33,123 nt of DNA from Coriobacteriales bacterium. Its GTDB lineage: Bacteria > Actinomycetota > Coriobacteriia > Coriobacteriales > UBA8131. The stretch is from assembly GCA_031268525.1 (NCBI GenBank), contig JAIRXA010000128.1:1-33123 (forward strand), read 5' to 3'. A program made the translations under genes and the position numbers. Of the stretch, positions 2,372 to 32,394 are shown one piece after another. The stretch's first letter is position 1, and every line of letters begins with the position of its first letter. The notes under the pieces were generated by a model, which saw nothing but the letters and a program-made list of their open reading frames with translations, searched no databases and had not been told where the DNA came from.

Positions 2372-2595
2372 TGAGCCCTCCTCGTGATGGTGCACCAATG
2401 CCTTAGCGTGCCTCGACCTGCCTTTTCCTGCTTCCTTACAGTATTGTACTTGTGTCAGGCTGTTGCTGTAATCCTTACAAACTCCACTGAATGTCAGTTT
2501 CCTTGCATGAATCCGCCCTTTTATAATTCGAAGCAGGATGGAGGGTTCCCGGGATTTTTGCGGGCACCCCAAACGGAGAGAGGAAGGTCGTGGCC

Positions 2596-12095: not shown

Positions 12096-12281
12096 TCATG
12101 CTTCTCATAAGATGGCGCCCCGCCCGTGGGCCCCTACCATGAATACCACCATGCCTCAGTAAGAGGCTCCAGCAACAGACTTCGGCAGGCTTCGGCAGGT
12201 ATCAAGACAGGGCAAGAAAGAGGGCGTCAGGGTACGCTTCGTGCCAGAAGTACCGAATCGAACAGGAGGACGGGAGGATCT

Positions 12282-15278: not shown

Positions 15279-15280
15279 CG

Positions 15281-15865
15281 ATGACACAATACGCGATCGT
15301 GACCGATCTCGACCGTTGCGTCGGATGCCTCGCCTGTTCCGTCGCCTGTAAAATGGTCAACTCGGTGCCCATCGGCCAGTTTTGGAACAAGACCCTGCGC
15401 ATTGGGCCCAACCCGAAAAATGAAGGCGACAACTGGCCCGATGTCGAGCTGTACTACCTTACGGTCCAATGCCAGCACTGCGAGAAACCCCAATGCGTTG
15501 AAGTCTGCCCAACGGGCGCTTCGCAAAAGCTTGCAGACGGCACCGTGCAGATCGACAAGCAAAAGTGCATCGGCTGCCAATTCTGCGTCATGGCCTGCCC
15601 CTACAACGTCAGATACCTCAATGAAGACGAGCGGGTTGTGGAGAAGTGCACCCTCTGCGAGCAGCTCATCGCCGATGGTGGTCTGCCCCAATGCGTCACG
15701 CAGTGCGGTGGACGTGCGCGTTATTTCGGTGACATCGATGATCCGGCTTCGGAGGTTTCGACTCTCCTTGCCGCCGAAGATCCAGCAACGGTCCACTCCC
15801 TTCCTGACGTGGGGAACCTGCCGACATTCAAATATATCCTTCGTAACATGAAGTGGAGGGGATAA
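15281..15865 (+). CDS. DmsB-like 4Fe-4S electron-transfer subunit
   Basis: Repeated CxxCxxCxxxC clusters (CVGCLACSVACK, CQHCEKPQCVEVCP, CIGCQFCVMACPYNVRY, CTLCEQ). Confidence 0.93.
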   Translation: MTQYAIVTDLDRCVGCLACSVACKMVNSVPIGQFWNKTLRIGPNPKNEGDNWPDVELYYLTVQCQHCEKPQCVEVCPTGASQKLADGTVQIDKQKCIGCQFCVMACPYNVRYLNEDERVVEKCTLCEQLIADGGLPQCVTQCGGRARYFGDIDDPASEVSTLLAAEDPATVHSLPDVGNLPTFKYILRNMKWRG

Positions 15866-15868
15866 GCC

Positions 15869-16741
15869 ATGGAGGTCCAGTGGTCTTTGATAGTCTTCAC
15901 TCTCTTCGCCTGCATCGCTTCCGGCGTGTTCGCCGGTCAGGGCTTGCTGGCGCTGCTCGGAAAGAGCGAGAGGCTTCAGAAGCCGGCGCTCGCCGTATCG
16001 CTCGGAGCCCTGGTAGTCGGAGGCATTGTCTCGTTCACACACCTCCAGCACTGGGAGCGGGCATTCAACGGATTCGGCAACCTCAGCTCGGGTATCACTC
16101 AGGAGCTCATCGGTATCGTTGTGATGTTCGTGCTGATTGTCATCTACTTTGTCGTCCTCCGCAGGGGGACGGTCCCCAAATGGGCAGGTATTCTCGCAAT
16201 CATCGGCGGGCTTGGATTTGTCCTTGTCGTGGCAAGCTCGTATATGATGCCCGCGCGCCCCGCATGGTCGACCCCCTTGCTGCACGTGTTCTACCTCGCA
16301 CAGATGGTGGTTTCCGGTGGTGCCACCCTGTGGCTCATCGCTGCCGTGCTGAAGGCTGACGATACCCTGGTGGTCAGTGCACGCATCACCGCCATAGGCG
16401 GTGTCTGCGTCGTGGTGTCTCTGATCGCCTATGCCCTGTACGCAAGCTCCCTGTCGCTTCCCATGGTAGGCAACTACTTTGACCCCACCGATCCAACGAA
16501 GCCGATGGTGGCCGTCGCCGGTCTGGGCGGAGAACTCCTGGCGGGTGGACTGGCAGCCTACTTCTGGGGCGCCCTCGTTGTCGGCGGCGCAATCGCCGCG
16601 ATCCTCGGCTTCCTCAAATGGAACAGAGCTGAGGGTAACTTTGGCTTTGCCGCAGCTGCCCTCGTCTGTGCGCTTGCGGGCGGCCTTGCCTTCCGCGCAG
16701 CACTGTACCTCATAGGCGTCAGCGCCTATGCGTTTTATTGA
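15869..16741 (+). CDS. DmsC-type membrane anchor subunit
   Basis: Eight or so hydrophobic helices, MEVQWSLIVFTLFACIASGVFAGQGLLALLG; immediately follows the FeS subunit. Confidence 0.85.
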   Translation: MEVQWSLIVFTLFACIASGVFAGQGLLALLGKSERLQKPALAVSLGALVVGGIVSFTHLQHWERAFNGFGNLSSGITQELIGIVVMFVLIVIYFVVLRRGTVPKWAGILAIIGGLGFVLVVASSYMMPARPAWSTPLLHVFYLAQMVVSGGATLWLIAAVLKADDTLVVSARITAIGGVCVVVSLIAYALYASSLSLPMVGNYFDPTDPTKPMVAVAGLGGELLAGGLAAYFWGALVVGGAIAAILGFLKWNRAEGNFGFAAAALVCALAGGLAFRAALYLIGVSAYAFY

Positions 16742-16765
16742 GTTTCGCGACTGGGTCCACGTTTT

Positions 16766-16798
16766 GCAAAGGGCCTCCATCACCCGGTGGCCCTTTGC
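16766..16798 (+). terminator. Intra-operon hairpin (10-bp stem)
   Basis: gcaaagggcc tccatcacccggt ggccctttgc just after the anchor gene; no T-tract. Confidence 0.5.
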
Positions 16799-16818
16799 GG
16801 CGTGGTTGGACCGAAGAA

Positions 16819-17715
16819 ATGGAGGCGGCTGTGGTTGACAATACAGGCGATGGCGCAGGGGGAGGTACGGCCGAAGGCGGAAGGCATATCGATCTCGAAG
16901 CTGATTACGATCCGCTGGCTGGTGATGCCGGGGACGCATTGGACGGCGAGGAAGAGAATGTCGCGTTCATCGGATTCATTGAGCATCAGGTCGAGGAGGC
17001 ACTCGATCCGCCCTCCGAGTCGATACGTCCTCCCGAAGAGCGTATCGCGGACCTGCTCGCAAGCCTTCCGAACCAGAAGGATCTGCTTCTCAAGATCATC
17101 GGATACTGCCGTGAGGCGCGAAGCCCCGGAGAGGTAGACGCATTCACCGTCGAGCTCCAAAAGACCAATAAGTCGGTCTACACGCCCGTCATCCTCCGGA
17201 AGCTCCTTGAGGACAGCGGCGCGCTCGTCTATGAGGAACCTGAGTTGTCGGCATCGGCTCCGGGTGCCGCTGAGGCGAGACAGGCGAATACGCCAGTGCC
17301 CGAGATGGAGAGTGATGTGGCAGCGGCGATGTCGGCTGGCCTGCCCGATGATGAGCAGCTCTACCTTGTCGTGGAAAAGCGGGTAGAAGGGACCTGGCTT
17401 TCCACGGCTGCGGCTCTGGGAATCCTCGATGCCCTCGATCCCATAACCGACCTCAGGGCTCTTTTGGCCGCCGAGGAGAAATACTCTGAAATCTATCTTC
17501 GTATTCTCAGGTACTGCGCCGAAGAGCCGCGTACGAAGCCCGAGCTCAACGCCCTTGTCGACGACGACCCGCTTCTGCAGAGCCCACGCCGTTACAGCGG
17601 CGCCTTCATCGAGCGACTCAATGAGAATGGCGCGCTTGAATGGAAGCCTCGATGGGCGACAACGGCCGCGGGCCTGAAGCTGCTCAGAGAACACGACAGG
17701 GCTGAGGGGAGCTGA
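16819..17715 (+). CDS. Hypothetical acidic protein with two apparent wHTH-like repeats, in the reductase operon
   Basis: ERIADLLASLPNQKDLLLKIIGYCREARSPGEVDAF.. and DLRALLAAEEKYSEIYLRILRYCAEEPRTKPELNALVDD.. align as an internal repeat. Start 16819 (ATG) or 16831 (GTG after ggagg). Confidence 0.7.
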   Translation: MEAAVVDNTGDGAGGGTAEGGRHIDLEADYDPLAGDAGDALDGEEENVAFIGFIEHQVEEALDPPSESIRPPEERIADLLASLPNQKDLLLKIIGYCREARSPGEVDAFTVELQKTNKSVYTPVILRKLLEDSGALVYEEPELSASAPGAAEARQANTPVPEMESDVAAAMSAGLPDDEQLYLVVEKRVEGTWLSTAAALGILDALDPITDLRALLAAEEKYSEIYLRILRYCAEEPRTKPELNALVDDDPLLQSPRRYSGAFIERLNENGALEWKPRWATTAAGLKLLREHDRAEGS

Positions 17716-18530
17716 TGAAAATGGATGAGCAGACTTACGGCCTCGAAGCCATCATGAAAGGGCGCGTCGCCACCTATGCGCTTCTTGTGCGTCTGTACCG
17801 CCGGGAAGTTGACCAGGAGCTCCTTGACGAGATGTGTGAGATGCGGTTTCCCGTGGGCGTCGGCAACACGGAGCTGGATGAAGGCTATCGCCTGTTCCAC
17901 GCATACCTGGGCACCGTCTGGGAACGAACCCTGACCGACCTTGCCGTCGATTATGCGCGTGTCTTCCTCGGCAATGGCATGAATGCCTATTCGGCAGCCT
18001 ATCCGTTCGAAAGCGTCCATACCTCCAGCAAGCGTCTCCTCATGCAGGATGCCCGTGATGAGATACTGGCGATCTATCGGGCAAACGACCTCTCAGTACC
18101 TGAAAGTTGGAAGGTGGGCGAGGACCACATATCGCTTGAACTCGAATTCATGCGAATTCTCACCGAGCGCGTGCTCCGCGCGCTGCGTGATGAGGGCGAA
18201 AACGACATGATGAGTCTGCTGAGAACCCAGTACAACTTCCTCATGGACCATCTGGTGAGTTGGACACCCATGCTCTTTGCCGAGATGATGAAGTTCGCGC
18301 AAACCGACTTCTACCGGGCGCTCGCACACCTGACTGCAGGATTTCTTGCCACAGACCGCGAGTTTCTCGAGGACCTGCTCGACGAGGATGTGCTTGACGA
18401 GAGCTTGCTCGCCGAGGATGTGTCTGACGAGGGGCTGTCTGACGAGGATGTGTCTGACGAGGGGCTGTCTGACGAGGTGCTGTCTGACGAGGGGCTGCTC
18501 GCCACAGAGACAGGTGTTGTCGATGACTGA
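17715..18530 (+). CDS. TorD/DmsD-family redox enzyme maturation chaperone with repetitive acidic C-terminus
   Basis: GRVATYALLVRLYRREVDQELLDEM...DYARVFLGNGMNAYSAAYPFESVHTSSKRLLMQDARDEILAIYRANDL is typical of TorD; overlaps upstream stop. Confidence 0.87.
   Translation: MKMDEQTYGLEAIMKGRVATYALLVRLYRREVDQELLDEMCEMRFPVGVGNTELDEGYRLFHAYLGTVWERTLTDLAVDYARVFLGNGMNAYSAAYPFESVHTSSKRLLMQDARDEILAIYRANDLSVPESWKVGEDHISLELEFMRILTERVLRALRDEGENDMMSLLRTQYNFLMDHLVSWTPMLFAEMMKFAQTDFYRALAHLTAGFLATDREFLEDLLDEDVLDESLLAEDVSDEGLSDEDVSDEGLSDEVLSDEGLLATETGVVDD
18378..18497 (+). repeat. 15-nt in-frame tandem repeat, 8 units (pentapeptide LDEDV/SDEGL)
   Basis: Units such as tctgacgaggggctg and tctgacgaggatgtg encode LDEDV LDESL LAEDV SDEGL SDEDV SDEGL SDEVL SDEGL. 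Confidence 0.95.
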
Positions 18531-19197
18531 CAGCGGGACGCCTGGCGGCGGAATCACCCGACGCAAGCTCGCGATAGGCGTGGGTGGCACGGTGGCGCTG
18601 CTTGGAATCGGAGGTGTGGCAAAGTTTGCGGGCAGCGAGCCGTTGTGCAGGCCGCCCGGCGGTCAGGATGAGGAGCATCTCATTGCCGAATGTCTGCGCT
18701 GCGAGAAATGCTATGAAGCCTGCCCCACAGGCGTCATCGTGACGGCAAAGATAGAGGCTGGCCTCATAAATGTTCGCACTCCCACGCTGAACTTCAAACT
18801 GAACTGGTGCGATTACTGCGACCAGGGCAACGACGGCCATCCCCTCTGTGTTGAGGTCTGCCCCACCGCAGCGCTGAGGCTGCCCGAGGGCGCGACCAGG
18901 GAGAACGTGATACTGGGCACCGCCTATCTCGTCGAGGACTGGTGTCTCGGTTGGCAGCTCAGAGGATGCAGGCGCTGTTACGAGGAGTGCCCCTTCGATG
19001 CCATCGAGATGGACGCCCACGAACGGCCAAGGGTGATTCCTGAGAAGTGTAACGGCTGCGGTCTCTGCGAGAACATCTGCCCCTCGCTGATGGCAGGCTC
19101 ATACACGGTTGGTGCCACCGACCGAGCCATTACGATCAAACCGGTCGAAACGCTACGACTCCTTGCTCTCGAACAGGCGGGGGAGGAAGAACAATGA
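18523..19197 (+). CDS. NapG/MauM-like ferredoxin-type protein
   Basis: TRRKLAIGVGGTVALLGIGGVAKF signal/anchor; CLRCEKCYEACPTG, CDYCDQG..CVEVCPTAAL, CRRCYEECPFDAI, CNGCGLCENICPS clusters; ATG at 18523 overlaps the torD stop. Confidence 0.87.
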   Translation: MTDSGTPGGGITRRKLAIGVGGTVALLGIGGVAKFAGSEPLCRPPGGQDEEHLIAECLRCEKCYEACPTGVIVTAKIEAGLINVRTPTLNFKLNWCDYCDQGNDGHPLCVEVCPTAALRLPEGATRENVILGTAYLVEDWCLGWQLRGCRRCYEECPFDAIEMDAHERPRVIPEKCNGCGLCENICPSLMAGSYTVGATDRAITIKPVETLRLLALEQAGEEEQ

Positions 19198-20252
19198 GGA
19201 GGTTCAAGGCGACACACGTTCGTACACTCATCATCCTGCTCGTCGCGCTTGTCATCATGGTCGGGTATGTTGCGCGCCTTGATGTCGGAAACCTGTCGAC
19301 TTTGGGCTATGGCATCATAAGCGCCATCTGTCCTCTGGGATTTCTTGAGACGACACTCGCCGGAAAGTCCTTCATCTTGCGCGCGCTTGTCTCCTTCGTC
19401 CTCGTCATTGCTCTTGTCATCGTGTTGGGGCGCGTGCTCTGCGCCTGGATCTGCCCCGTGCCGCTCATCCAGCGTTGGCTTCCCAAACGTAAGAAGAAGG
19501 CACGCGAGCAGATGGAAGACAGGCGAGCGGACCTCGCTCTGTCGGAGGACCGACAGCCAGGCGGCCGGCGGCGCGGCGCGGCGCGGCTCGACTCACGCCA
19601 TTGGGTACTCGGAGGCTCGCTGCTCTCCGCTGCGGTATTTGGATTTCCGGTCTTCTGCCTCATCTGCCCTGTCGGGCTCACCTTTGCGACACTGCTCGTC
19701 CTGTTCCGTCTCTTCGGTTACGGAGAGACCACTTTGACGCTTCTGGTGTTTCCCGCCATCCTCATCCTCGAGCTTGTGGTTTTTCGTAAATGGTGCTCGA
19801 AGATATGTCCGCTTGGTGCGCTCGTTTCTCTCGTCGCGGGGCTCAATCGCTTCTTTCGCCCAAAGATCAACGACAGCAAATGTCTCGTCACATCCCGCGG
19901 TATTGACTGTTCTCTCTGCCACGAGGCCTGCGCCCGCGAGGGCATCGACCTTCGCCGACCCCTGGCATCGAAAACTGCACTCAACGACTGCACGAAGTGC
20001 CGGGACTGTGCCGATGCCTGCCCAACGAAGGCGATCATCTTCCCTCTCCTTGCTTCCAGACCGACGGCTCCAAAGGAGATGGTGGAGGTAAGGGCGACGG
20101 CAGCGACAGGAGTGGCGGAGACGACAGAAGCGGCGGAAGCGGCAGAGAGGACGGGGAGGGCGAGCACGACAGAGAGGACGGGGACGGCCAGCACGACAGA
20201 GACGACAGAGGCGACGAGCACGACAGAGACCTCAAAATCAGAAGAGTCGTAA
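19194..20252 (+). CDS. NapH-like polytopic 4Fe-4S membrane protein with low-complexity Thr/Glu C-terminus
   Basis: Hydrophobic helices with CPLGFLETTL, CAWICPVPLIQRWLP, CLICPVGLTFA, CSKICPLGALVSL; cytosolic CSLCHEAC and CTKCRDCADACPT clusters; ATGA overlap with the upstream gene. Confidence 0.87.
   Translation: MRRFKATHVRTLIILLVALVIMVGYVARLDVGNLSTLGYGIISAICPLGFLETTLAGKSFILRALVSFVLVIALVIVLGRVLCAWICPVPLIQRWLPKRKKKAREQMEDRRADLALSEDRQPGGRRRGAARLDSRHWVLGGSLLSAAVFGFPVFCLICPVGLTFATLLVLFRLFGYGETTLTLLVFPAILILELVVFRKWCSKICPLGALVSLVAGLNRFFRPKINDSKCLVTSRGIDCSLCHEACAREGIDLRRPLASKTALNDCTKCRDCADACPTKAIIFPLLASRPTAPKEMVEVRATAATGVAETTEAAEAAERTGRASTTERTGTASTTETTEATSTTETSKSEES
20157..20237 (+). repeat. 27-nt in-frame tandem repeat, 3 units
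   Basis: Encodes RASTTERTG / TASTTETTE / ATSTTETSK at the NapH-like C-terminus. Confidence 0.88.
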
Positions 20253-20306
20253 GGATGGGCGGTGCCCTCCCATACTTGCTCGCTCGCCTCAGCAAAGGAG
20301 AAAGCA

Positions 20307-21530
20307 GTGCCTGACACTCTTGCCATGATAAAGGTACTGAACTCGCTTCAGGGTACGGGTATCGCCGTCTTTCCCGAGCGTTGTGTGGTCGTGCGCAACC
20401 GTAACGCGCATTGCCGTCGATGCGCCGAGGTCTGCGACACCGGCGCAATCTCGTTTGATGATGGCGGATCGGTCGGTCTGACGATAGACGCGGAGAAGTG
20501 TGTGAGTTGTGGCAACTGCACAAGCTCGTGTCCCACGACGGCGCTTGAGGCGCGCAACCCCGATGATGCCGAGCTCCTGCGATATGCAACAGAGCTTATC
20601 CGTGAACGAGGCCTGGCGCCTGTGTTCGCCTGCAAACCTCTGCTCGATACACAGCGTGACGGCTATGACCGGAGCAGGGTGATTGAGGTCGGCTGTCTGG
20701 GGCGTGTTGAGGAGACCGAACTTGTCGCACTCGCAGCACTCGTTGCGTCCTGCGCCGATGCGCTCTACCTTGCGTATGGAGACTGCATGAGCTGCCCGCT
20801 CGCAAGCGGGCGGCTGAGCGCCGATTGCATGGCGCACACGACAGAGCTGCTCCTTGAGGCCTGGGGGTACGCGAGCCCTCTGCGGACGTGCGAGGGACTG
20901 CCCACCTCGGTTGTTCTCGATAGCCGGACATCCCGCCATACCGAGGATGTGGATGGGCTTTCGCGCCGCGACTTCTTTGCCCAACTCAAGGAAGGCGCCA
21001 AAGCCATGGCTACACATGCGGCATCGAATGCGATCGGCAATGAGGAGGCAGCGGTCGCGCCCATATCTTCTGTGACCAAGGTCTCCAACGACGGGACTCT
21101 GCCGCAGCTTGTTCCTCATCGGCATGCACGCCTCCTTGAGTACCTCAGGTTTATCGGTCGGCCACAGGCAGAGTTCCTCGATACCCGTCTGTGGGGATGC
21201 CTGTCCATTGACATCTCCACCTGCACCTCATGCCGCATGTGTGCGACCTTCTGCCCAACAGGTGCGATCAGCAGATTTGATGATCCCGGGCCTCAAGGCG
21301 AGATGGGCATCGAGCATCGGCCTGCGGCCTGCGTGCAGTGTCGCCTCTGTGAAGATATCTGTCCCTCAAAGGCCCTGTCCATACGCTCGGAGGTTTCCCT
21401 GCGAGAGCTTGTTGGAAGAAAGGCTGTTCGCTTCGTGATGAGGCCGCCCCGCTATCGGCTCAACTCTCCTGACCAGATCCGCCAAAGGATGTATGACCTG
21501 CTGGGCGGCGGTCAGATATACGAGCGCTAG
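20307..21530 (+). CDS. Multi-4Fe-4S protein with MvhD-like cysteine segment
   Basis: CRRCAEVCDTGA, CVSCGNCTSSCPTTA, CTSCRMCATFCPTGA, CVQCRLCEDICPSKA; segment IEVGCLGRVEETEL...GDCMSCPL resembles hydrogenase/heterodisulfide-type FeS subunits. GTG start 20307 with aaaggag RBS. Confidence 0.82.
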   Translation: MPDTLAMIKVLNSLQGTGIAVFPERCVVVRNRNAHCRRCAEVCDTGAISFDDGGSVGLTIDAEKCVSCGNCTSSCPTTALEARNPDDAELLRYATELIRERGLAPVFACKPLLDTQRDGYDRSRVIEVGCLGRVEETELVALAALVASCADALYLAYGDCMSCPLASGRLSADCMAHTTELLLEAWGYASPLRTCEGLPTSVVLDSRTSRHTEDVDGLSRRDFFAQLKEGAKAMATHAASNAIGNEEAAVAPISSVTKVSNDGTLPQLVPHRHARLLEYLRFIGRPQAEFLDTRLWGCLSIDISTCTSCRMCATFCPTGAISRFDDPGPQGEMGIEHRPAACVQCRLCEDICPSKALSIRSEVSLRELVGRKAVRFVMRPPRYRLNSPDQIRQRMYDLLGGGQIYER

Positions 21531-21759: not shown

Positions 21760-23262
21760 TCAGAGCACATCTCCCGGGTTGCTCAAAACTGTCTGGGCCC
21801 TGAGAATTTCGTATGAAAGTAAGATGAAAGCCCGTTCCTCTGCGTCCTCCAGGTCTATTGCGAGTAATTCGCCTATCCGTTTTATCCGGTAGATCAGGGT
21901 ATTGCGGTGGATGTGCAGAGCCTGAGCGGCGTCCACCAGTCTACGCTCATGTGCAAGGAAGCGATAAAGGGTCTCAAAGAATTCTGTGCCGTGTATCTCG
22001 TCATAGCGCATCAGTGTCAGTACGCCGGGATGGCAAAACTCCCATTTGCTGTTTTGCTCAGACAGGGTTTTTATCAGATGTTTGTAGGCGTAGTCCTCAC
22101 AGCGATAGATTCCGGCAGTTCTTCCACCCATGCTCATGGCAAAGTTTGCCTGCCTGAGGCGCAACGATAGGGCACCCCACCCTTCAAAGGGCAATGAAAT
22201 GCCCACCATATAATACGTTGCATTGATCGTCGCCATTAAATCGCCGATAAAAGCCTCTTCCCGTTCTCGGGGAAACACCGACACAATCTGGTTGTCAAAT
22301 TCCAGGGAGATATTCTCAGCTGCAAATCCTCTCATCGTGGTCAGCATACTTCTCGTTCTTATTACCGGAGCGTTTCCCAGAATGTTCTTGATTGCAAGCA
22401 GAATAAAGGTGTCGCAACCTGCAGAGAACTCTAATATATGAGCATAATCGCTTTGCAGCATTTTGCCTTCAAGAAGATCGTGTACGATGGAGGCCTTGGA
22501 CTTGAGGGTGAAATACTGCTCGTCATTTTCTCTACTCTTGAGAGCCAGGCGCAAAATGTCGCAAAACACTGTTGCAAGCTGGCATTGGGCCTGAGAAAGT
22601 TCCTTTTTATATTCCTCTATCATAAATGCGGCAATGATCTCGTCATCAAACACGATGCTTGCTGCGATGTAGCAAAACCGCTCTTTCCCAGAATAATAGC
22701 AATAGCGCCTTGGTACTTCCTCCCACTCGGGCAAATAGTCGCCTTCGAAAGTGATGACCGGAATCCCTACCGACCTCAGTTGCACGAATCGAGTCTCGTA
22801 GGTCTGCCGCCACCTCTCATTGAAATCGTTGGGACCAAACTTTTCGCTGATTGCTATAACCCGTCCATCGGCATCCATGATTCTGTTGGGAAATCCAAAG
22901 ACCTCATCGCTCAAACTGATCATCTTCTGCAAGGCATTCGGAGAGATTGCGGCCTCTCTGAGTCGCGCCTCCCATTGGTTGTAGTAATCAAAGGCGGCCA
23001 AGACCTCATTGATCAGTGTTTCGCTGTCGGAGTTATTGATGAAAAGATAATCATTGCCCTGCGCGAGTACAATGGTGTCAGAATGCTGACCCATGACCGA
23101 CGGCTCCGAAACCGCCGCTATGTAGATGTGCTCTCGGTTGTAGGTAGAAATGCCTTCCGTGATGATGCGGACTCCCGTGATTTCCGCTTCGCCCCTATGA
23201 ATAAAAACACGTGGATTATGGCTTTCAAGCCATTCTGCCAAAATCCACATACTGAGTTTCAT
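21760..23262 (-). CDS. PucR-family transcriptional regulator
   Basis: C-terminal PucR HTH FETLYRFLAHERRLVDAAQALHIHRNTLIYRIKRIGELLAIDLEDAEERAFILLSYEI; probable ATG at 23262 (MKLSMWILAEWL). Confidence 0.87.
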   Translation of the reverse strand: MKLSMWILAEWLESHNPRVFIHRGEAEITGVRIITEGISTYNREHIYIAAVSEPSVMGQHSDTIVLAQGNDYLFINNSDSETLINEVLAAFDYYNQWEARLREAAISPNALQKMISLSDEVFGFPNRIMDADGRVIAISEKFGPNDFNERWRQTYETRFVQLRSVGIPVITFEGDYLPEWEEVPRRYCYYSGKERFCYIAASIVFDDEIIAAFMIEEYKKELSQAQCQLATVFCDILRLALKSRENDEQYFTLKSKASIVHDLLEGKMLQSDYAHILEFSAGCDTFILLAIKNILGNAPVIRTRSMLTTMRGFAAENISLEFDNQIVSVFPREREEAFIGDLMATINATYYMVGISLPFEGWGALSLRLRQANFAMSMGGRTAGIYRCEDYAYKHLIKTLSEQNSKWEFCHPGVLTLMRYDEIHGTEFFETLYRFLAHERRLVDAAQALHIHRNTLIYRIKRIGELLAIDLEDAEERAFILLSYEILRAQTVLSNPGDVL

Positions 23263-23471
23263 GGCTTCATCCCAATCCGACTGCACGCAGAAAACGCAAA
23301 GAGGAGCCTGCCTCCATAGTATTTGTACGAATAGTACCAATAGATCGTCGCAAGAACTCTTGCATTTCAGTCACATTATACCTTCTTTGCCCACGTGCTT
23401 CTGCGCTATTTTAGGCATCGCTTGTAATGGAGGAAAAAAAATTCTGAGTAATTCGAACCTGAGGAAGGAGG

Positions 23472-24716
23472 ATGAATGCTGTGATACGTGAAGAGCAGCG
23501 CCAGGAAAAAACCAGGCGGGTAGAAACTGCAATTGCATTGGGAGAACCGGATGTTGTACCTTTTGCACCACTGATCGGTGCTTTTTACCTGTTGGGCTAT
23601 AACATCAACCCTTACGATGCGATGATGGACTTTCGTAATATCATCCCGGGAGTTCAGCAATTCATCGAAGACTACGATCCCGATGAGGTTATGGTTGCTG
23701 GCCTCCACGGGATTCCGATGCTGGAGAGCCTGGGCACGAACTTCATCAAATGGCCCGGTCCCACCTGCGGTCTTCCTTTGAGTGATACCTTCCAACACCT
23801 GGATGACACCTTTCTTCAGGACGATGAGTTCAAGGAGTATATCCTCGATCCGACCCACTTTACCCTTACCAAACTCCTGCCACGCAAGCACAGGAACCTT
23901 GAGGGCTTGAGCAAGCTCTATTTACGCGAGTGCTTCGATACCGTTTTCTTCAACGACCTTCCACTGCTGGCACTCCCCGAGGTTCAAGAGAGCCTTGCCC
24001 ATCTGCTGGAGGCAGGTAAGCTCCAGGCAGAGCGAGCAAAACAGCTCGGCGCGGTGCTCGCCTCGATTTCCCAGACAGGCTATCCTCTGCTCGCCCAGGG
24101 CACCCTCTGCGTCCCCTTTGATGCCTATGGAGACAGTGTTCGCGGCATTATCCGAGCGGTGATGGATACCTCTGAGTTTCCCGATGAGTTGGAGGAAATA
24201 CTGGGTGTTATCACCGAAATGAATGTCAATCGGATACTCGATGTCTATGCAGCGCGTGGCGTGCACAGGGTGTTCATCCCTCTGCACTGCGGCGTCGATG
24301 AATTCATGAGTTGCGAAAGCTATGAGCGCTTCTATTGGCCCGGCCTCAAGGCCTGCATCGATGGTATCGCCCAGCGGGGGATGCAGGCATTGATTTTCTG
24401 TGAAGGTCGCTATGATACCCGCCTGGAATTCCTTTCCGACGTTCCCAGGGGTACGGTCACCTATTGCTTTGAGCAGGTTGATATCAAACGCGCCAAAGAA
24501 GTGCTTGGCGGCGTTGCCTGCATCTGTGGCAATCTGCCCACGCCGCTTTTGGTGAACGGCAGCCCTGCGCAGGTAGAGCGGGAGACAAAGAAGCTGATAG
24601 ATATGCTGGCGCCTGGTGGCGGGTTCATCATGAACTGCTCGATTATCATCGACAACGCCAAACATGAGAATATGCGCGTTTGGCGTGAGACCACTGAGAC
24701 CTACGGGAAGTATTGA
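23472..24716 (+). CDS. Uroporphyrinogen decarboxylase (URO-D)-superfamily protein, putative methyltransferase 1
   Basis: VETAIALGEPDVVPFAPLIG; CICGNLPTPLLVNGSPAQVERETKKLIDMLAPGGGFIMNC matches the C-terminal signature of URO-D-like methyltransferases; ATG start with gaaggagg RBS. Confidence 0.82.
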   Translation: MNAVIREEQRQEKTRRVETAIALGEPDVVPFAPLIGAFYLLGYNINPYDAMMDFRNIIPGVQQFIEDYDPDEVMVAGLHGIPMLESLGTNFIKWPGPTCGLPLSDTFQHLDDTFLQDDEFKEYILDPTHFTLTKLLPRKHRNLEGLSKLYLRECFDTVFFNDLPLLALPEVQESLAHLLEAGKLQAERAKQLGAVLASISQTGYPLLAQGTLCVPFDAYGDSVRGIIRAVMDTSEFPDELEEILGVITEMNVNRILDVYAARGVHRVFIPLHCGVDEFMSCESYERFYWPGLKACIDGIAQRGMQALIFCEGRYDTRLEFLSDVPRGTVTYCFEQVDIKRAKEVLGGVACICGNLPTPLLVNGSPAQVERETKKLIDMLAPGGGFIMNCSIIIDNAKHENMRVWRETTETYGKY

Positions 24717-24741
24717 AAACGAGAGGTATTGAAAACGGGCG

Positions 24742-24806
24742 AGAGAGTGCAGGGAGAGAGTGCAGGGTGAGCGTGCAGGGTGAGGGTGCAGGGAGAGAGT
24801 GCAGAG
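24742..24806. repeat. 13-nt tandem repeat, 5 units, intercistronic
   Basis: agagagtgcaggg x2, tgagcgtgcaggg, tgagggtgcaggg, agagagtgcagag. Confidence 0.9.
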
Positions 24807-24836
24807 CGAGGTCTATCCACGACAAGGAGAAAGGGC

Positions 24837-25955
24837 ATGAACATGACGATAACTGCAATCACGAACGCAGCGGTATTCGACGGAGAGAATACGATCGGCA
24901 TTAAAACAGTTGTGGTAGAAGATGACTTGATTACCGGGTTATCAAGTTCGGAAGCGAGCACACCAGGCGGCATTGAGAGCATTGTCGACGGTAGCGGCTG
25001 CACGTTGCTGCCGGGACTCATCGACTCCCACGCCCACCTCTATGATCGCGTCGCCGATCTGGAAACCTGCGCGAAAAACGGTGTTACCACGCTACTCGAT
25101 ATGGGCAATCGCGACTACCGTTTCGTGGACAGGTTGCGTGAGGTGCCCCGTGCCGCCAGTGTTTTCAGCGTGCTCGGTGTGGCCTATGCTCCGGGCAGTA
25201 CCATGCTCAAGGCAATGTATTTTCCAGAGGACTGCGGAGTGAAGGACAGTGTTGACGCGATTCGTTTTGTCGATGATCAGGTGGATCGTGGCGCCGATTT
25301 TATCAAAATCATCCTGGAAGACCCCATGCAGAACAACGGCATCAAGTGGCCTTTTGAAGTCGCAAAAGCCCTGGTGGATCGGGCACACGAAGCGAAAAAG
25401 CTGGTCATAGCACACGCGGTGACACCCGACAGTTACCTTGAGGCCCTGCAATTCGGGGTGGACGAGATATCCCACGTACCTTTTGTGCCACTTCCGCAAA
25501 GTACCCTGGATGAGCTTATCGCCCATAAGGTAACCATCGTCCCAACGCTGACGATGATGTCTACGATTGCCCAGAAACTCAATGAGTCCTTTGGTATTCC
25601 GATAACGGCGGATTTCTGTTTCAAGACGGTGGCAGAGTTCCACAGGGCTGGTGTGAATATACTCGCAGGTACTGACGCCAATTTTGATGACCCGCCGTCA
25701 ATGGCGACGCCTATGGTCTATGGCAGTTCGCTCCACAGAGAGCTGGGATACCTCGTGCAGGTCGGGCTCGGCCCACGAGAGGCGCTTGCGGCAGCTACCT
25801 CCCGACCGGCAGATTTCTTCGGGCTGAGCGATAGAGGGAGAATTGCCGTCGGTAAGCGCGCCGACCTCTACCTGTGCAAAGGCAATCCGAGTGAGGAGAT
25901 AGCTGATATCTGCAAGGCTGTGCAGGTCTGGGTTGCCGGGGAGGAAGTGCTATGA
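24837..25955 (+). CDS. Amidohydrolase-superfamily metal-dependent hydrolase
   Basis: GLIDSHAHLYD (HxH), DFIKIILEDP (Lys), KKLVIAHA, DEISHVPF and ILAGTDANFDDP metal-ligand motifs; aaggagaaagg RBS. Confidence 0.88.
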   Translation: MNMTITAITNAAVFDGENTIGIKTVVVEDDLITGLSSSEASTPGGIESIVDGSGCTLLPGLIDSHAHLYDRVADLETCAKNGVTTLLDMGNRDYRFVDRLREVPRAASVFSVLGVAYAPGSTMLKAMYFPEDCGVKDSVDAIRFVDDQVDRGADFIKIILEDPMQNNGIKWPFEVAKALVDRAHEAKKLVIAHAVTPDSYLEALQFGVDEISHVPFVPLPQSTLDELIAHKVTIVPTLTMMSTIAQKLNESFGIPITADFCFKTVAEFHRAGVNILAGTDANFDDPPSMATPMVYGSSLHRELGYLVQVGLGPREALAAATSRPADFFGLSDRGRIAVGKRADLYLCKGNPSEEIADICKAVQVWVAGEEVL

Positions 25956-26980
25956 CCATCTCGGAAAAGGAAAACATCCTCAGGCATTACAAGCATGTGA
26001 TGCCTGAGCATTATCCAGATTTGAACTACCTGCATACGATCATGGGTTATGGCTTTTTGGAGCGCGCCCTCGAGCCGGAGATCGTGGCCCTGCTTGGGCT
26101 GGAGCCGGACAGATATGACCAGTACACGGTGTCGCGTAAAGACTGGTTTGGTGTCGACTATCTCCATGTGGAGGGCATTGGCTCGATGCCTTCTCCTGAC
26201 CGGCCTCCCGTTGTCACCGACATCTGCAGATGGCGTGAGCAGCTTGTCTTTCCCGATCTGGATGCCTACGACTGGGCACAGGCGGCTCAATTTGACCATG
26301 TAGATCGGGTCGATCGCGAGCATAAGGCTTTCAGCGTATTGGTACAGGCTGGCATCTACGAACGCTTCCACTCGTTGTTGGGCATGGAGGAGGCACTGAT
26401 TGCGCTGCTGGAAGAGCCAGAAGCATCGGCGGAGCTCTTGGGGGCGATATGCGAGCATAAGCTCAAGCTGTTCGCGCGAATCATCGAGCATTATCAACCG
26501 GATATCATCCGCCAGCACGATGATTATGGTTCTCAGGTCAGTCTGCAGATGAGTCCAGCACTGTGGCGGGAGATGATCAAGCCAAATCTGGCACGGATGG
26601 TCGAATTCGTCCATTCTGCAGGTCTTCGCTATGAGCAGCATTCCTGCGGAAAGATCGAGGCGATTATCCCTGATTTCGTGGAGATTGGTATAGACAGTTG
26701 GCAGGGCATGCACATCAATGATGTGCCTATGCTGAAGCAGCTTACCGGTGACAGGCTGAACTACCACATGAGTCTGCCGATACAAAGCTACGTGGCTCGC
26801 GACGCCGCTGGCAACCTGAACGAGGAAGAGCTTCGCAGAGAGGTTCGGGAGTTGGTTACCGCCTGCTCGAAGGGCGGCTTCTATTTTGCCGTAACGGCTA
26901 CTGCCGATCCCGGTTGGTGGGGGACTGCCGTTCTCAATGATGAGTTGGGCAAGGTCGGAGCGACCATCAGGTATCAGTGA
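25952..26980 (+). CDS. URO-D-superfamily protein, putative methyltransferase 2
   Basis: RHYKHVMPEHYPDLNY; QHDDYGSQVSLQMSPALWREMIKPNLARMVEFVHSAGLRYEQHSCGKIEAIIPDFVEIGIDSWQG; ATGA overlap with the amidohydrolase. Confidence 0.82.
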   Translation: MTISEKENILRHYKHVMPEHYPDLNYLHTIMGYGFLERALEPEIVALLGLEPDRYDQYTVSRKDWFGVDYLHVEGIGSMPSPDRPPVVTDICRWREQLVFPDLDAYDWAQAAQFDHVDRVDREHKAFSVLVQAGIYERFHSLLGMEEALIALLEEPEASAELLGAICEHKLKLFARIIEHYQPDIIRQHDDYGSQVSLQMSPALWREMIKPNLARMVEFVHSAGLRYEQHSCGKIEAIIPDFVEIGIDSWQGMHINDVPMLKQLTGDRLNYHMSLPIQSYVARDAAGNLNEEELRREVRELVTACSKGGFYFAVTATADPGWWGTAVLNDELGKVGATIRYQ

Positions 26981-27148
26981 TGGAAGTGCGGCGGCGGGGC
27001 AGGGCGGAAATGCGGCGAGTGTGGCAGCGGCAGGGAAACGTGACGAATGCGGTGCGGGATGGAAGTGCGGCGAGTGCGGCGCGGGGTGGGTGTACGGAGG
27101 GGCAGCGGTCCACTCGATACCTTAGAACAATCAAGGAGGAGGATACTC

Positions 27149-28465
27149 ATGCGTAAGGTAAATGTGAGCGAACTTATTGCCAAGGCAAAGCTCAACCGGT
27201 TTTTCATCACGGTGTTTCTGGTGACACTGCTGGTCTTTGTTGCCAATGGATACGGGCAGGGAGTTTTTGGCGTGGCGATGCCCAACATCCTCACCGACCC
27301 CACCGCACCCACCAATGACGCCGTGGTTTTAGGGCTTGTGGTCACCTGTACGCTGGTCGGTATGTTTTTTGGTAGTTTGGTCTTTGGCGTTGTGGCAGAT
27401 AAAATTGGCCGCCCCAAGACCCTTGCCATCTGCATGGTTCTCTTTTGCGCTGGGAACGGATTGATTGGGATTGCCAGCACCGAGGCAGAGTTCTTTATCT
27501 ATCGTGTTGCTGCTGGCTTTGGTCTGGCCGGTGTGGTGCCGGTCTGTTTCGCAATCGTATCTGAATACTCACCGCTCAAGCATCGCGCAGCCCTGACCTC
27601 CTATGTTTCCAGCGGTGTGCCCATTGGCCAGATTATCGCACCGCTCTTGGCGATGTTGATCCTGCCTGTTGGCGGCTGGCGTTGGATGTTTCTTACGGCG
27701 TTCCTTCCCCTGGTGTTCATCGTATTGGTCTTTGCCTTTTTGCCGGAATCAATGGAACGACTGGTTGGGCAGAAGCGTTTTGACAAAGTAAAGCAGATCT
27801 TGAAGAAAGCCGTGCCTCTCTTTGGCGCCGCCGATGATGATGAGTATGTAACCGCGAGCTCTCAGGTCGGCAAGACAAAGTCATCGCTCGCAGATCTCTT
27901 CAAGGGCGGTATGGCGCGCACCACCCTGCTTTTCTGGGTTGCCTTTATCTGCATGATGTTTTTTACCTACGGTATGTCAACCTGGCTCCCACAGATGATG
28001 ATTCAGGCAGGATTTCCGGTTGCAAACTCACTCATCTTCATGTTCCTCTATACCGCTGGGTCGGTGCCCGGTATCTTTGTTTCCGGTTTGTTGGTTGGCA
28101 GGCTGGGGTATAAGAAATGCACGTCACTCTACATTGCGATCGTTGCGATCTCGATGATGCTTCTTGCTCTGCGCCCTGATGTACTCATCATGTATATCCT
28201 GCTCTTCCTCTGCGGCTGGGGCCTCTTTGGCTCGATGGCGATCATCTATACCTACCTGTCTATCTCCTATCCCATTGTCGTTCGCAGCACCGGTGTTGGG
28301 TTTGCTGCGGGAATCGGACGTATCGGTGGTTCGATTGCGCCCATGGCCGGAGGCTTCCTGGCGGCGGCTGGTACACCGCTGGCAGTCAACTTCCTCTTCT
28401 TTGCGGCCTTTGCGGTAGTTGCCTGCGTTGCGATTATTCTCACGAAAGGCAAGGTGGCGGATTAG
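27149..28465 (+). CDS. MFS transporter (possibly aromatic acid:H+ symporter-like)
   Basis: About 12 hydrophobic helices; GSLVFGVVADKIGRPKTLAICMVLF motif; ATG at 27149 with aaggaggagg RBS. Confidence 0.87.
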   Translation: MRKVNVSELIAKAKLNRFFITVFLVTLLVFVANGYGQGVFGVAMPNILTDPTAPTNDAVVLGLVVTCTLVGMFFGSLVFGVVADKIGRPKTLAICMVLFCAGNGLIGIASTEAEFFIYRVAAGFGLAGVVPVCFAIVSEYSPLKHRAALTSYVSSGVPIGQIIAPLLAMLILPVGGWRWMFLTAFLPLVFIVLVFAFLPESMERLVGQKRFDKVKQILKKAVPLFGAADDDEYVTASSQVGKTKSSLADLFKGGMARTTLLFWVAFICMMFFTYGMSTWLPQMMIQAGFPVANSLIFMFLYTAGSVPGIFVSGLLVGRLGYKKCTSLYIAIVAISMMLLALRPDVLIMYILLFLCGWGLFGSMAIIYTYLSISYPIVVRSTGVGFAAGIGRIGGSIAPMAGGFLAAAGTPLAVNFLFFAAFAVVACVAIILTKGKVAD

Positions 28466-28956: not shown

Positions 28957-29871
28957 ATGGAGATAGAATTATTATCTGAATATATCCAGCTATCAAGAAC
29001 CTTGAACTTTACCAAGACAGCGCTGACCCTCAACATCTCACAACCCGCCTTGAGCAATCACATAATGAAGATAGAAAAAGAAGTTGGCGCCAGCCTGATT
29101 GACCGTTCGAGCGGGAAATCCAGGTTCACGATTGCTGGGCGCGAGTTCCTGGAATGCGCCGTCGAGATTACCAGCATCTACAATAAGTTCAAAACCCGCT
29201 GCAGTCTGGGCGAAGTCTCTGACTCGAATCACTTCGTAGTTCAGGTGTTGCAGCATGCAGACACGATCACCTTTCATCTACTCAATCGGATTCGAAGTTT
29301 TAAAGAGGTACATCCCGGAGTTGTCGTTGATATCAGCGAATCTCTTGCCTTTGATGCGGTGGAAAACATCCGCAAGGGTATCGTTGATTGCGGATTTTAT
29401 GCTATCCGTCGACATGAGCCCAGGATCGAAGAAGGCTTGATTGCCGTACCCCTGCATGAAGAGGAGTTTGTGGTCTGGCTTGATGTCGATTCTCCCTTGT
29501 TTAAAGCCGAAACACTTTCGCCCAGAGATCTTGCAGGTTCAACCGTTCCCGTCTGGGTTGGTTCAAGCGCGAACGATTTTGAGAATACCTACACCGAACT
29601 TTTTGAGGATTACGATACAGAAGTTGAATACAGTCCGCGCTACTGCACCTCCAGGGAAGATTTCTTCTTGAACAGGATCCGACCAAAAGATGTGGTCATC
29701 CTGACCATGGGTAGCGAAGCGATCAGCTCAATCGGCGTGAGGAACGAGAGAGGTTTACGGGGCTTTAATCCCCCGGTATACGTTGACGCCTATATCGTTT
29801 TTCGAGATGAGAGCCATTGCCCAGCCCTGGAGAGCTTTCGCGAATTCCTTGTTGAGAACTACAACCGGTAA
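28957..29871 (+). CDS. LysR-family transcriptional regulator
   Basis: EYIQLSRTLNFTKTALTLNISQPALSNHIMKIEKEVGASLIDRSSGKSRFTIAGREFL N-terminal wHTH. Confidence 0.92.
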   Translation: MEIELLSEYIQLSRTLNFTKTALTLNISQPALSNHIMKIEKEVGASLIDRSSGKSRFTIAGREFLECAVEITSIYNKFKTRCSLGEVSDSNHFVVQVLQHADTITFHLLNRIRSFKEVHPGVVVDISESLAFDAVENIRKGIVDCGFYAIRRHEPRIEEGLIAVPLHEEEFVVWLDVDSPLFKAETLSPRDLAGSTVPVWVGSSANDFENTYTELFEDYDTEVEYSPRYCTSREDFFLNRIRPKDVVILTMGSEAISSIGVRNERGLRGFNPPVYVDAYIVFRDESHCPALESFREFLVENYNR

Positions 29872-29928: not shown

Positions 29929-32394
29929 CTACAGGCTTGCCAAATAGCTGACTACATTGGTTCCCGCAAGTCGCCCGGAGGTAAATGCCCAGCCCAGAGC
30001 ACAACCGCCATACTGTGCGTATGGCTCAAGATTCGTATACAATACGCCGCCACTGTCATTGCCACAGGCGTAGAGTCCGCCTATCTTCGTCTTTCCGTCT
30101 GCCTGCAGTACATTGATATCTGTGTCCACATCCAATGCTGCAACGGTGGCAAAGGGCATGGCGTCTGTCCTTACCGCGTAATAGGGAGCCGCGTTAATCT
30201 GTGAGATGAGCATTTTCGGGTCTTTTCCGAATTCAAGATCCTCGCCACTCCTGCAAAACGATTCATAACGATCCACCTGATCTGCAAACGCAGATGCAGG
30301 AACGCCCATTTTCTCTGCCAGATCCTCAAGGGTATCGGCTTTATAGACGTATCCCCTGGCGATGGCCGTATCGAGTACTTCGTAAATTTGCGGAAGTGGC
30401 CTCGCGTTGGGAACTCCGCCCTGGCCAAATGCTCTGGTAGAAGCTTGATAGGTATCTGCTTCGCCGGGATAACCCTTATCGGCAAGATTGTCTACATAAT
30501 CACTACCATAAATGGTGTACCAATGAGGGCCGGCGGACCAGAAAGCGAACGTCCCATTCTCGTTGAAGTGACGAACGCCGTCGGTGCCAACCGACAAGGC
30601 AGCTTCATTGATGCCCATCAAGAGGGGTATATCGTTTATTGACCAGATGTTTTTCTTCCTTGTATAGACATCCACTCCCTCGGTATAGTAAGCGGGGTAG
30701 TCAGTGATGTACTCGGCAGATGTCTTGTAGTGAACGCAGGGCGACATGTCGATGTTATAGGTACCAGCACCTTTATCGATAGCCGATTGAATCATCCGTC
30801 CCTTATTCTGATACATTCCCCATATCCGCCATCTGCCATTCAGTGGATACTCAGGATTCTGAATGACCATCTCTTGAAAATCCTGGTTACCGCCAAATCC
30901 ACCACTGCTCAAAATGACCGATTTGGCGGCGATCGTATACTCTGTTCCATCTACGGTACTGCGAGCTTTTACACCGGTAACCTTGTTGGAGGCAGCATCA
31001 TAGAGCAGTTCGTAGGCTTCTGTCTCAAGCAGGTACTTTCCGCCAAGGGCGGTAAAGTCAGAAATAATGCTGTCATAGTACTGTCCCACCGTTTCGGATC
31101 TTCCCCCAAACGTGTATTGAGGGTATTCGGCGGCATAGTCTTTGCCCGGATCCATATTCGCAATATGAACGTACTGTTGCTTGCAGAGCCATGTATTTGT
31201 CCCGAAGCCACCCATTGCATTCGTAAACACAAAACCATGATCAAACTGCAGCCAGTCAACGGTCTTTCCCGATTCGTCCATGAACAGTTTGACGCATTCT
31301 GGTTTACAGGGTGTGCCCTTTGAATACACCTCAAGCCAATTTGCATATAAACTGTCATAGTCACACCAGGGCACTCCATTGTTGTATTTTTCAAGATATC
31401 GCGGCGCATTGACGCTGAATGGCTCACCAGCCTGTGCGGCAGTTCCCCCGTATTTTCCTGCAACCTCAACGGCGAGAATGCTCACGGGCCTGCCAGCAGC
31501 CTTCATGGCCTCAGCCGCGGACATGGCTGCGGCACTGCCAGCGCCGCCCAGACCGCATATCACAAGATCGTATTCGAGTGTTTCAGTGTTGCTGGATGTC
31601 TCGGAAGCACCATAGAAATTATGTATGGCCGTTGGGCTGGCCCCTCCAGCGTACAAGGCTTTTTTGAGGGCTTTTTCTGTCGCGGATTTGATGCCAGCGC
31701 TGGAACCTGTTGCTCCAGAGATGGAGTCGAGAGTGACAGACTGCGCTTCAAGCATTCGAGGAATGAGATACTCCTCAACCTCTTTCAGCAGCAGTGTCTC
31801 TTCTCTGCAGAGGTCTTTGTCGATCACCTGGATTGCCTTCAGACTCTTTTCGTCTACATCGATCTGTACTCGAACAGGCTCTGTCCAGTTAAAGCCGAGG
31901 GATTCGCCAAAGTAGACCCCTGGCAGCATCTGCACTTCGCCGGGCTGTTCAAGAACGCCGGCGTTGTACAGGCATTCTTCAGTTGCACGAAATACCGCTC
32001 TACTGGTGGTCGTTGCGCCTGACACGGCGTCAACCCCAGCAAGGCCGTTGGCGTCTTTGATAAGGGGTGCCAGCACGGTAACGGCAACACCGCCCTTGGC
32101 GGCTGTTTCTCCTTCGTGGCTGATGGAGATATCAGTGATAACTCCCTTATCGATGCTGAGGTCAACGGTCACCAGGCCCAGATAGCCTTGCGATGAAGCG
32201 GAATATTCTCCGCTTGCTGCCGTTCCGCCCTCTGCTCCACCATTGCTGGAGGTCCCACACGCTGCCAAGCCTGTAGCAGCTACCCCTGCTCCGGCAAAGG
32301 CAGCTCCCTTGATAAACGACCGCCGCGACATTTCCTGCTGTTTGGGTTTTTCAAGCCTGTCTTCACTCTTCATCTCCAGCTCCCTTTCCTCCAT
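29929..32394 (-). CDS. Tat-exported FAD-binding reductase with two N-terminal FMN-binding domains
   Basis: SRRSFIKGAAFAGAGVAATGLAAC signal; FMN-binding motifs DAVSGATTTSRAV and DSISGATGSSAGI; FAD domain YDLVICGLGGAGSAAAMSAAEA; C-term GGLYACGNDSGG..YGGCALGWAFTSGRLAGTNV. Confidence 0.92.
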   Translation of the reverse strand: MEERELEMKSEDRLEKPKQQEMSRRSFIKGAAFAGAGVAATGLAACGTSSNGGAEGGTAASGEYSASSQGYLGLVTVDLSIDKGVITDISISHEGETAAKGGVAVTVLAPLIKDANGLAGVDAVSGATTTSRAVFRATEECLYNAGVLEQPGEVQMLPGVYFGESLGFNWTEPVRVQIDVDEKSLKAIQVIDKDLCREETLLLKEVEEYLIPRMLEAQSVTLDSISGATGSSAGIKSATEKALKKALYAGGASPTAIHNFYGASETSSNTETLEYDLVICGLGGAGSAAAMSAAEAMKAAGRPVSILAVEVAGKYGGTAAQAGEPFSVNAPRYLEKYNNGVPWCDYDSLYANWLEVYSKGTPCKPECVKLFMDESGKTVDWLQFDHGFVFTNAMGGFGTNTWLCKQQYVHIANMDPGKDYAAEYPQYTFGGRSETVGQYYDSIISDFTALGGKYLLETEAYELLYDAASNKVTGVKARSTVDGTEYTIAAKSVILSSGGFGGNQDFQEMVIQNPEYPLNGRWRIWGMYQNKGRMIQSAIDKGAGTYNIDMSPCVHYKTSAEYITDYPAYYTEGVDVYTRKKNIWSINDIPLLMGINEAALSVGTDGVRHFNENGTFAFWSAGPHWYTIYGSDYVDNLADKGYPGEADTYQASTRAFGQGGVPNARPLPQIYEVLDTAIARGYVYKADTLEDLAEKMGVPASAFADQVDRYESFCRSGEDLEFGKDPKMLISQINAAPYYAVRTDAMPFATVAALDVDTDINVLQADGKTKIGGLYACGNDSGGVLYTNLEPYAQYGGCALGWAFTSGRLAGTNVVSYLASL

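Follow-up and report, generated by a model that had tools for sequence, protein, structure and literature searches.

Gene content of the URO-D locus

The window is the 33,123-nucleotide stretch at positions 1–33,123 of contig JAIRXA010000128.1. It comes from a Coriobacteriales bacterium (assembly GCA_031268525.1), a gut-type actinobacterium the genome of which is a draft that is 77.8% complete, and it holds a cluster encoding two proteins of the URO-D (uroporphyrinogen decarboxylase) superfamily, UD1 and UD2, together with a metal-dependent amidohydrolase, AMH, and an MFS importer. UD1 (414 aa; 23472–24716, + strand) scores 58 bits with the URO-D model, for which the cut-off is 23.9, while UD2 (342 aa; 25952–26980, + strand), at 26.6 bits, is barely above that cut-off. 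AMH (372 aa; 24837–25955, + strand), which lies between them, matches Amidohydro_1 with E = 9e-27, and the importer (about 27149–28465, + strand), which resembles aromatic acid:H+ symporters, matches MFS_1 with E = 4e-48. A PucR-family transcriptional regulator (21760–23340, − strand; HTH_30, E = 3.7e-17) is divergent from UD1. An earlier reading of the sequence alone had proposed this set of five genes; each of them has a domain match and lies at, or very near, the place where that sequence-only reading had put it.

AMH most likely starts at ATG 24837, which is preceded by the Shine-Dalgarno-like stretch AAGGAGAAAGG, rather than at the start of a longer GTG open reading frame, and the MFS gene most likely starts at ATG 27149, downstream of AAGGAGGAGG. 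The ATG of UD2 lies inside the stop codon of AMH (ATGA), and this 4-bp overlap suggests that the two genes may be translationally coupled. UD1, AMH, UD2, and the MFS gene all have the same orientation, and a terminator scan found no terminator-like site on the + strand in the spacers between them. One correction to the earlier reading is that the spacers on both sides of AMH–UD2 hold short tandem repeats. The UD1–AMH spacer holds 4.9 copies of a 13-bp repeat (24741–24804; TRF score 100), and the UD2–MFS spacer holds 3.1 copies of a 27-bp repeat (27006–27089; TRF score 82). Because of these repeats, an operon running from UD1 to the MFS gene is plausible but unproven. Between 22.5 and 28.5 kb the GC content runs at 49–56%, which is inside the range of the remaining window.

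Predicted functions of UD1, UD2, and AMH

The sole strong solved relative of UD1 is CdmB (PDB 9rui), the chloromethane methyltransferase I (MTI) of Acetobacterium dehalogenans, which sits beside the O-demethylases MtvB, OdmB, VdmB, and MtoB (PMC13222342). The UD1 profile matches CdmB over the full length with E = 1.7e-65, and UD1 as a single sequence gives E = 4e-24. By contrast, the hemE equivalog model gives UD1 only 18.6 bits vs a cut-off of 303. In a tree of 47 URO-D proteins, UD1 and its homologues, which were gathered by a family-profile search, form one well-supported clade that is split from three true HemEs with a support of 100. UD1 thus combines full-length homology to a characterised MTI with exclusion from HemE, and it is very probably a corrinoid MTI of the O-demethylase/CdmB branch. 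The AlphaFold model of UD1 has a mean predicted local distance difference test score (pLDDT) of 93.9 and finds UroD folds in a fold search. An invariant Glu311–Gly312 stands where HxCG would be. The closest homologues, at 53–58% identity with the best at 58%, are in uncultured Firmicutes/Lachnospiraceae and not in Coriobacteriia.

UD2 falls in a second clade of the same tree, separate from that of UD1 and from HemE (support of 100 vs the three HemEs), and it has no match to the hemE equivalog. Its model has the UroD fold with moderate confidence (pLDDT 77.8); structure prediction, which the sequence-only reading had put forward as a check, therefore gives the UroD fold for both proteins. The best solved relative of UD2 is MtaA (4ay7), with a weak profile match of E = 1.6e-6 over the C-terminal part only. 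His230 and Cys232 align with the HxC motif of MtaA, which supplies zinc ligands in that enzyme, and the third Cys ligand of MtaA is not matched. The best homologue (41%) is in Parasporobacterium paucivorans, where it adjoins a divergent PucR gene; Blautia parvula is also among the best, and genomes of Parasporobacterium, Blautia, and Lactonifactor carry relatives of UD2 type. P. paucivorans is described as a consumer of methoxylated aromatics, and papers mention the two together. A profile-free search of the genome contigs with UD2 as the lone query gave no matches; paralogues of UD2 in its own genome are on contigs C89, C162, and C193. Taken together, UD2 is probably a corrinoid MTI or the partner of one.

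As a separate observation, four draft genomes of one genus in the family of the window, each of only 1.1–2.3 Mb, have 59, 33, 16, and 43 URO-D matches of UD2 type, often in tandem, an extreme multiplication of putative methyltransferases; for A. dehalogenans, 26 systems have been reported (PMC13222342).

Among URO-D methyltransferases, the thiol-type enzymes have His-Cys-Cys, and the O-type enzymes replace one or both Cys (PMC10418091). Thiol substrates are disfavored because neither UD1 nor UD2 keeps the His-Cys-Cys zinc triad, and we rejected a thiol methyltransferase of the coenzyme M (CoM) or Mlp type as the identity of either protein. HemE was likewise rejected from the equivalog scores and the tree, in agreement with the earlier view of both proteins as URO-D-superfamily methyltransferases. 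The E-X14-E-X20-H zinc motif associated with O-demethylases was looked for in UD1 and UD2 and found in neither.

AMH has a complete set of metal ligands of the binuclear type, with His65 and His67 of the HxH motif, Lys156, His193, His213, and Asp280, so the intact motifs noticed previously are borne out. Most of the equivalences are visible in alignments with 3mkv, 3mtw, and LlADH. The nearest solved relatives are Xaa-Pro/arginine carboxypeptidase-like proteins, the amide hydrolase LlADH, and molinate hydrolase; going by the molecule names, they include peptidases that free C-terminal residues, amide hydrolases, and a hydrolase of molinate. These matches support the prediction that AMH hydrolyses an amide-type bond, as a general class from which no particular substrate can be transferred.

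Relatives of AMH were found in 0 of 399 other genomes of the class (E ≤ 1e-40), in 0 of 32 other genomes of the family (E ≤ 1e-15), most of which are incomplete drafts, and in 0 of the 33 genomes in which the closest UD1s occur (E ≤ 1e-25). One of 391 Clostridia genomes has a relative at 40% identity (locus L161), facing its own divergent PucR gene, and one other of 297 Actinobacteriota genomes has a relative at 33%; neither has a URO-D gene nearby. On present sampling, AMH is a lineage-specific addition. A paper search found no literature on URO-D proteins plus an amidohydrolase in gut demethylation.

Conserved gene pairs and corrinoid machinery elsewhere in the genome

What part of the cluster is conserved? 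We surveyed the neighborhoods of 80 UD1-homologue loci. A divergent PucR-like gene lies 2–262 bp from the UD1 homologue in 12 of them, including the three closest, and only five PucR-like genes occur elsewhere in those 80 loci. In five Firmicutes loci, a UD1-type gene adjoins a UD2-type gene, and one of these, L195, has the gene order PucR, UD1-type, UD2-type. The closest PucRs seen are those of L195 (7e-52) and L095 (2e-57), and both loci also carry UD1-type and UD2-type genes. Thus, the conserved part is PucR with UD1 and, across Firmicutes, the pair of UD1-type and UD2-type genes. PucR is presumed to be a substrate-responsive regulator. A PocR sensor domain in PucR was considered and dropped, as the match has E = 0.1 only and is not seen in the PucR orthologues.

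The sequence-only reading had suggested a candidate catabolic pathway not described before, to be checked by searching gene neighborhoods in other Coriobacteriia for the four-gene set. That comparison finds the pairs described above and not the four-gene set, which we rejected as a conserved unit for both Coriobacteriia and the Firmicutes relatives, as AMH is missing from the 32 other genomes of the family and from the 33 with the closest UD1s. The biochemical part of the suggestion, import followed by hydrolysis and methyl transfer, survives as a working model.

The same reading had noted that corrinoid partners are missing. They are missing from the contig of the window, which has no B12-binding match, and they are encoded elsewhere in the genome, where such matches are on contigs C57, C198, C72, and C195. 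Two corrinoid proteins are encoded on C57 and C198, and two RACo-type activases on C168 and C198. C57 also encodes a methyltetrahydrofolate (CH3-THF):corrinoid methyltransferase (PRK07535, 323 bits vs a cut-off of 259). Contig C168 encodes AcsB of acetyl-CoA synthase (ACS), an AcsE-like pterin-binding protein, and an AcsV-like activase, genes predicted to form the carbonyl branch of the Wood–Ljungdahl pathway. The genome thus has a corrinoid methyl-acceptor system, the lack of which the sequence-only reading had named as grounds for refuting its proposal. Since the corrinoid protein, the activase, the CH3-THF:corrinoid methyltransferase, and the Acs genes are all present, it can take methyl groups from an orphan MTI, and a corrinoid protein, a methyltransferase II (MTII), and an activase are available to UD1.

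The corrinoid protein and MTII are linked only on C57, and the cluster with UD1 lacks the complete MTI–corrinoid protein–MTII arrangement of the cdmBCA, mtv, and mto type. The row on C57 (7123–11959) comprises an MtaA-like URO-D gene, the corrinoid protein, the CH3-THF:corrinoid methyltransferase, a DUF1638 gene, and an MFS gene, and is a complete methyl-transfer system in its own right. Other orphan URO-D genes adjoin MFS genes on C89 and C162, which suggests a general scheme of importer and MTI modules that share central partners. In 15 of the 80 loci, from several phyla, the UD1 homologue has a gene for a corrinoid protein, RACo, or MtrH no more than 5 kb away.

Proposed pathway and comparison with known systems

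The nearest NCBIfam subfamily of the MFS protein is TIGR00895, 'aromatic acid/H+ symport' (282.6 bits, E = 5e-84). Upstream of the cluster, at 12294–21530, a putative molybdenum bis(pyranopterin guanine dinucleotide) (Mo-bisPGD) oxidoreductase, predicted to be exported by twin-arginine translocation (TAT), is encoded with its accessory genes. The solved structure nearest to it is that of acetylene hydratase, the closest characterised relative of the gut catechol dehydroxylases (PMC7028382). In other members of the family, UD2-type genes stand beside genes for cytoplasmic acetylene-hydratase-like Mo enzymes at six loci. Going by gene neighborhood, these contexts agree with methoxy/catechol chemistry, because O-demethylation yields catechols and Mo enzymes of this kind remove catechol hydroxyls. 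Several of the six loci also have small iron–sulfur (Fe–S) subunits, and the six are possibly coupled demethylation–dehydroxylation operons. We regard O-demethylation of an aromatic substrate as fairly probable, and the methylated compound is likely plant-derived.

On balance, we lean toward reading the cluster as an orphan, substrate-specific corrinoid-demethylation module, most likely for a methoxylated aromatic that arrives as an amide-type conjugate. The analysis establishes the family membership, the motifs, the synteny, and the presence of the partners encoded in trans; we infer the substrate class, the choice of corrinoid protein, and the following order of steps. PucR would sense the substrate and switch on UD1–AMH–UD2–MFS, and the MFS protein would import the substrate with protons. 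AMH would then cleave an amide or similar bond, freeing a methoxylated acid or phenol, from which UD1 and UD2 would pass one or more methyl groups to the Co(I) of the corrinoid protein encoded on C57 or C198. UD1 and UD2 may be two MTIs for different methyl positions, or partner subunits. The RACo activase would hold the cobalt reduced, and the CH3-THF:corrinoid methyltransferase of C57 would move the methyl group to tetrahydrofolate and so into the Wood–Ljungdahl pathway.

Several points weigh against this proposal. The link to AMH rests on one genome, and AMH may act on something unrelated. CdmB, the nearest solved relative of UD1, demethylates haloalkanes rather than methoxyaromatics, and UD2 is without a characterised close homologue. 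The MFS score of 282.6 bits is below the TIGR00895 cut-off of 418.55, which places the protein outside the aromatic acid:H+ symporter subfamily as defined. The incompleteness of the draft genome also counts here.

That AMH works in the same pathway as UD1 and UD2 seems to us reasonably likely. It could instead be a chance neighbor, recently inserted and acting on another substrate, in which case the unit would be PucR–UD1–UD2 with or without the MFS gene. Locus L195, with PucR, UD1-type, and UD2-type genes and no AMH, fits this explanation, as do the missing AMH in the relatives tested, the repeats that fill the UD1–AMH spacer, and the Clostridial relative at L161, near which a divergent PucR gene is present and URO-D genes are missing. 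However, the 4-bp overlap of AMH and UD2 suggests translational coupling, and the four genes are co-oriented with terminator-free spacers; we consider the chance-neighbor explanation unlikely, though it deserves to be taken seriously. Less likely again is that the two URO-D proteins serve as corrinoid methyltransferases acting on a methyl donor that is not aromatic, for instance a halomethane or an aliphatic methyl ether. CdmB is indeed a chloromethane enzyme, and candidate haloalkane MTIs are scattered over uncharacterised clades of the superfamily (PMC13222342), but haloalkanes require neither an importer nor an amidohydrolase, the MFS protein is closest to aromatic-acid symporters, and UD1 is distant from CdmB in sequence.

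It is highly improbable that UD1, UD2, or both decarboxylate uroporphyrinogen or have some activity other than methyl transfer. In favor of this reading, HemE structures rank first in the fold searches for both models, and no gene above the HemE cut-off was found in the 77.8% complete draft, so the role of HemE would be vacant. The fold ranking does not separate MTI from HemE, because CdmB is absent from the fold library, the entries of which end in April 2026, whereas the CdmB paper is from May 2026. The equivalog scores and the tree both set UD1 and UD2 apart from HemE, and UD1 homologues have corrinoid-related neighbor genes. That genes of two distant URO-D branches recur as a pair in one operon hints at a two-part methyltransferase. 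An extended version of the demethylation module, in which UD1-type and UD2-type proteins would form a two-component MTI, heteromeric or sequential, with corrinoid partners in trans, coupled here to AMH for opening and demethylating amide conjugates, is a speculation to which we give little weight.

Acetogens feed on methyl groups from the methoxyaromatics of plants and hosts, and such methyl groups shape gut drug and phytochemical metabolism. If the demethylation module is as proposed, a single regulated unit would join amide hydrolysis to corrinoid demethylation, and the orphan MTI modules of Coriobacteriia would depend on a few shared corrinoid proteins.

Other features of the window were also recorded. 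The putative Mo-bisPGD operon (10521–21530) resembles the catechol dehydroxylase loci of Eggerthellaceae. It includes a membrane-LuxR regulator (10521–12095, − strand), the TAT Mo enzyme (12294–15278), a likely membrane anchor (15869–16741), a TorD-like protein (17715–18530), and Fe–S proteins up to 21530. Short imperfect tandem repeats occur at gene ends and in spacers at 18368–18501 and 20094–20230, as well as at the two sites in the cluster (24741–24804 and 27006–27089), and in the TorD-like protein one such repeat lengthens the acidic C-terminal end (SDEGLSDEDVSDEGL). At 29929–32394 and 2590–4464 lie two FAD_binding_2 reductases with TAT-like N-termini, possibly respiratory reductases for phenolic acrylates. 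The former has FMN-binding domains, its nearest model is vinyl phenol reductase, below the cut-off, and it lies beside a convergent LysR gene (28957–29871).

How does the cluster compare with known systems? With the Cdm system of A. dehalogenans (PDB 9rui; PMC13222342) it shares a full-length relative of CdmB in UD1, and an MTI role with a separate corrinoid protein and MTII is likely. Unlike in Cdm, UD1 is a distant member, cdmC and cdmA counterparts do not adjoin it, AMH and the MFS gene are present, and a haloalkane substrate is unlikely. Set beside the soluble CoM methyltransferases (SCMTs) MtaA and MtbA and the type 1 mlp clusters (PMC10418091), UD2 has the profile match to MtaA and keeps the His and Cys of the HxC motif, but it is without the third Cys, there is no corrinoid gene in the cluster, and the resemblance is too weak to bring it under the Mlp definition of >25% identity to an SCMT. 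With amidohydrolases of the Xaa-Pro/arginine carboxypeptidase and amide-hydrolase type (3mkv, Cc2672, LlADH), AMH has its metal ligands and the order of its domains in common, although the matches reach E = 1e-12 to 1e-16 only and the substrate is not transferable.

A further parallel is with Mto, Mtv, and Odm (MtoB1/MtoB2, MtvB, OdmB, VdmB), which have URO-D-superfamily MTIs and need a corrinoid protein, an MtrH-type MTII, and an activase. The mto operon of Methermicoccus has two MTIs (MtoB1 and MtoB2), MFS transport, and a regulator (PMC8630106), as does the present cluster. By contrast, the genes for the corrinoid protein, MTII, and activase here lie elsewhere in the genome, AMH is added, and UD2 is from another deep branch than UD1, whereas MtoB1 and MtoB2 are close paralogues. 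The cluster would thus work like the Mto/Mtv O-demethylases, yet it is not a complete member of that group because the corrinoid protein and MTII are unlinked. No new chemistry is shown: the demethylation is of the known, corrinoid-dependent kind, AMH is the sole unusual addition, and the points of interest are the pairing of two URO-D branches and their link to an amidohydrolase.

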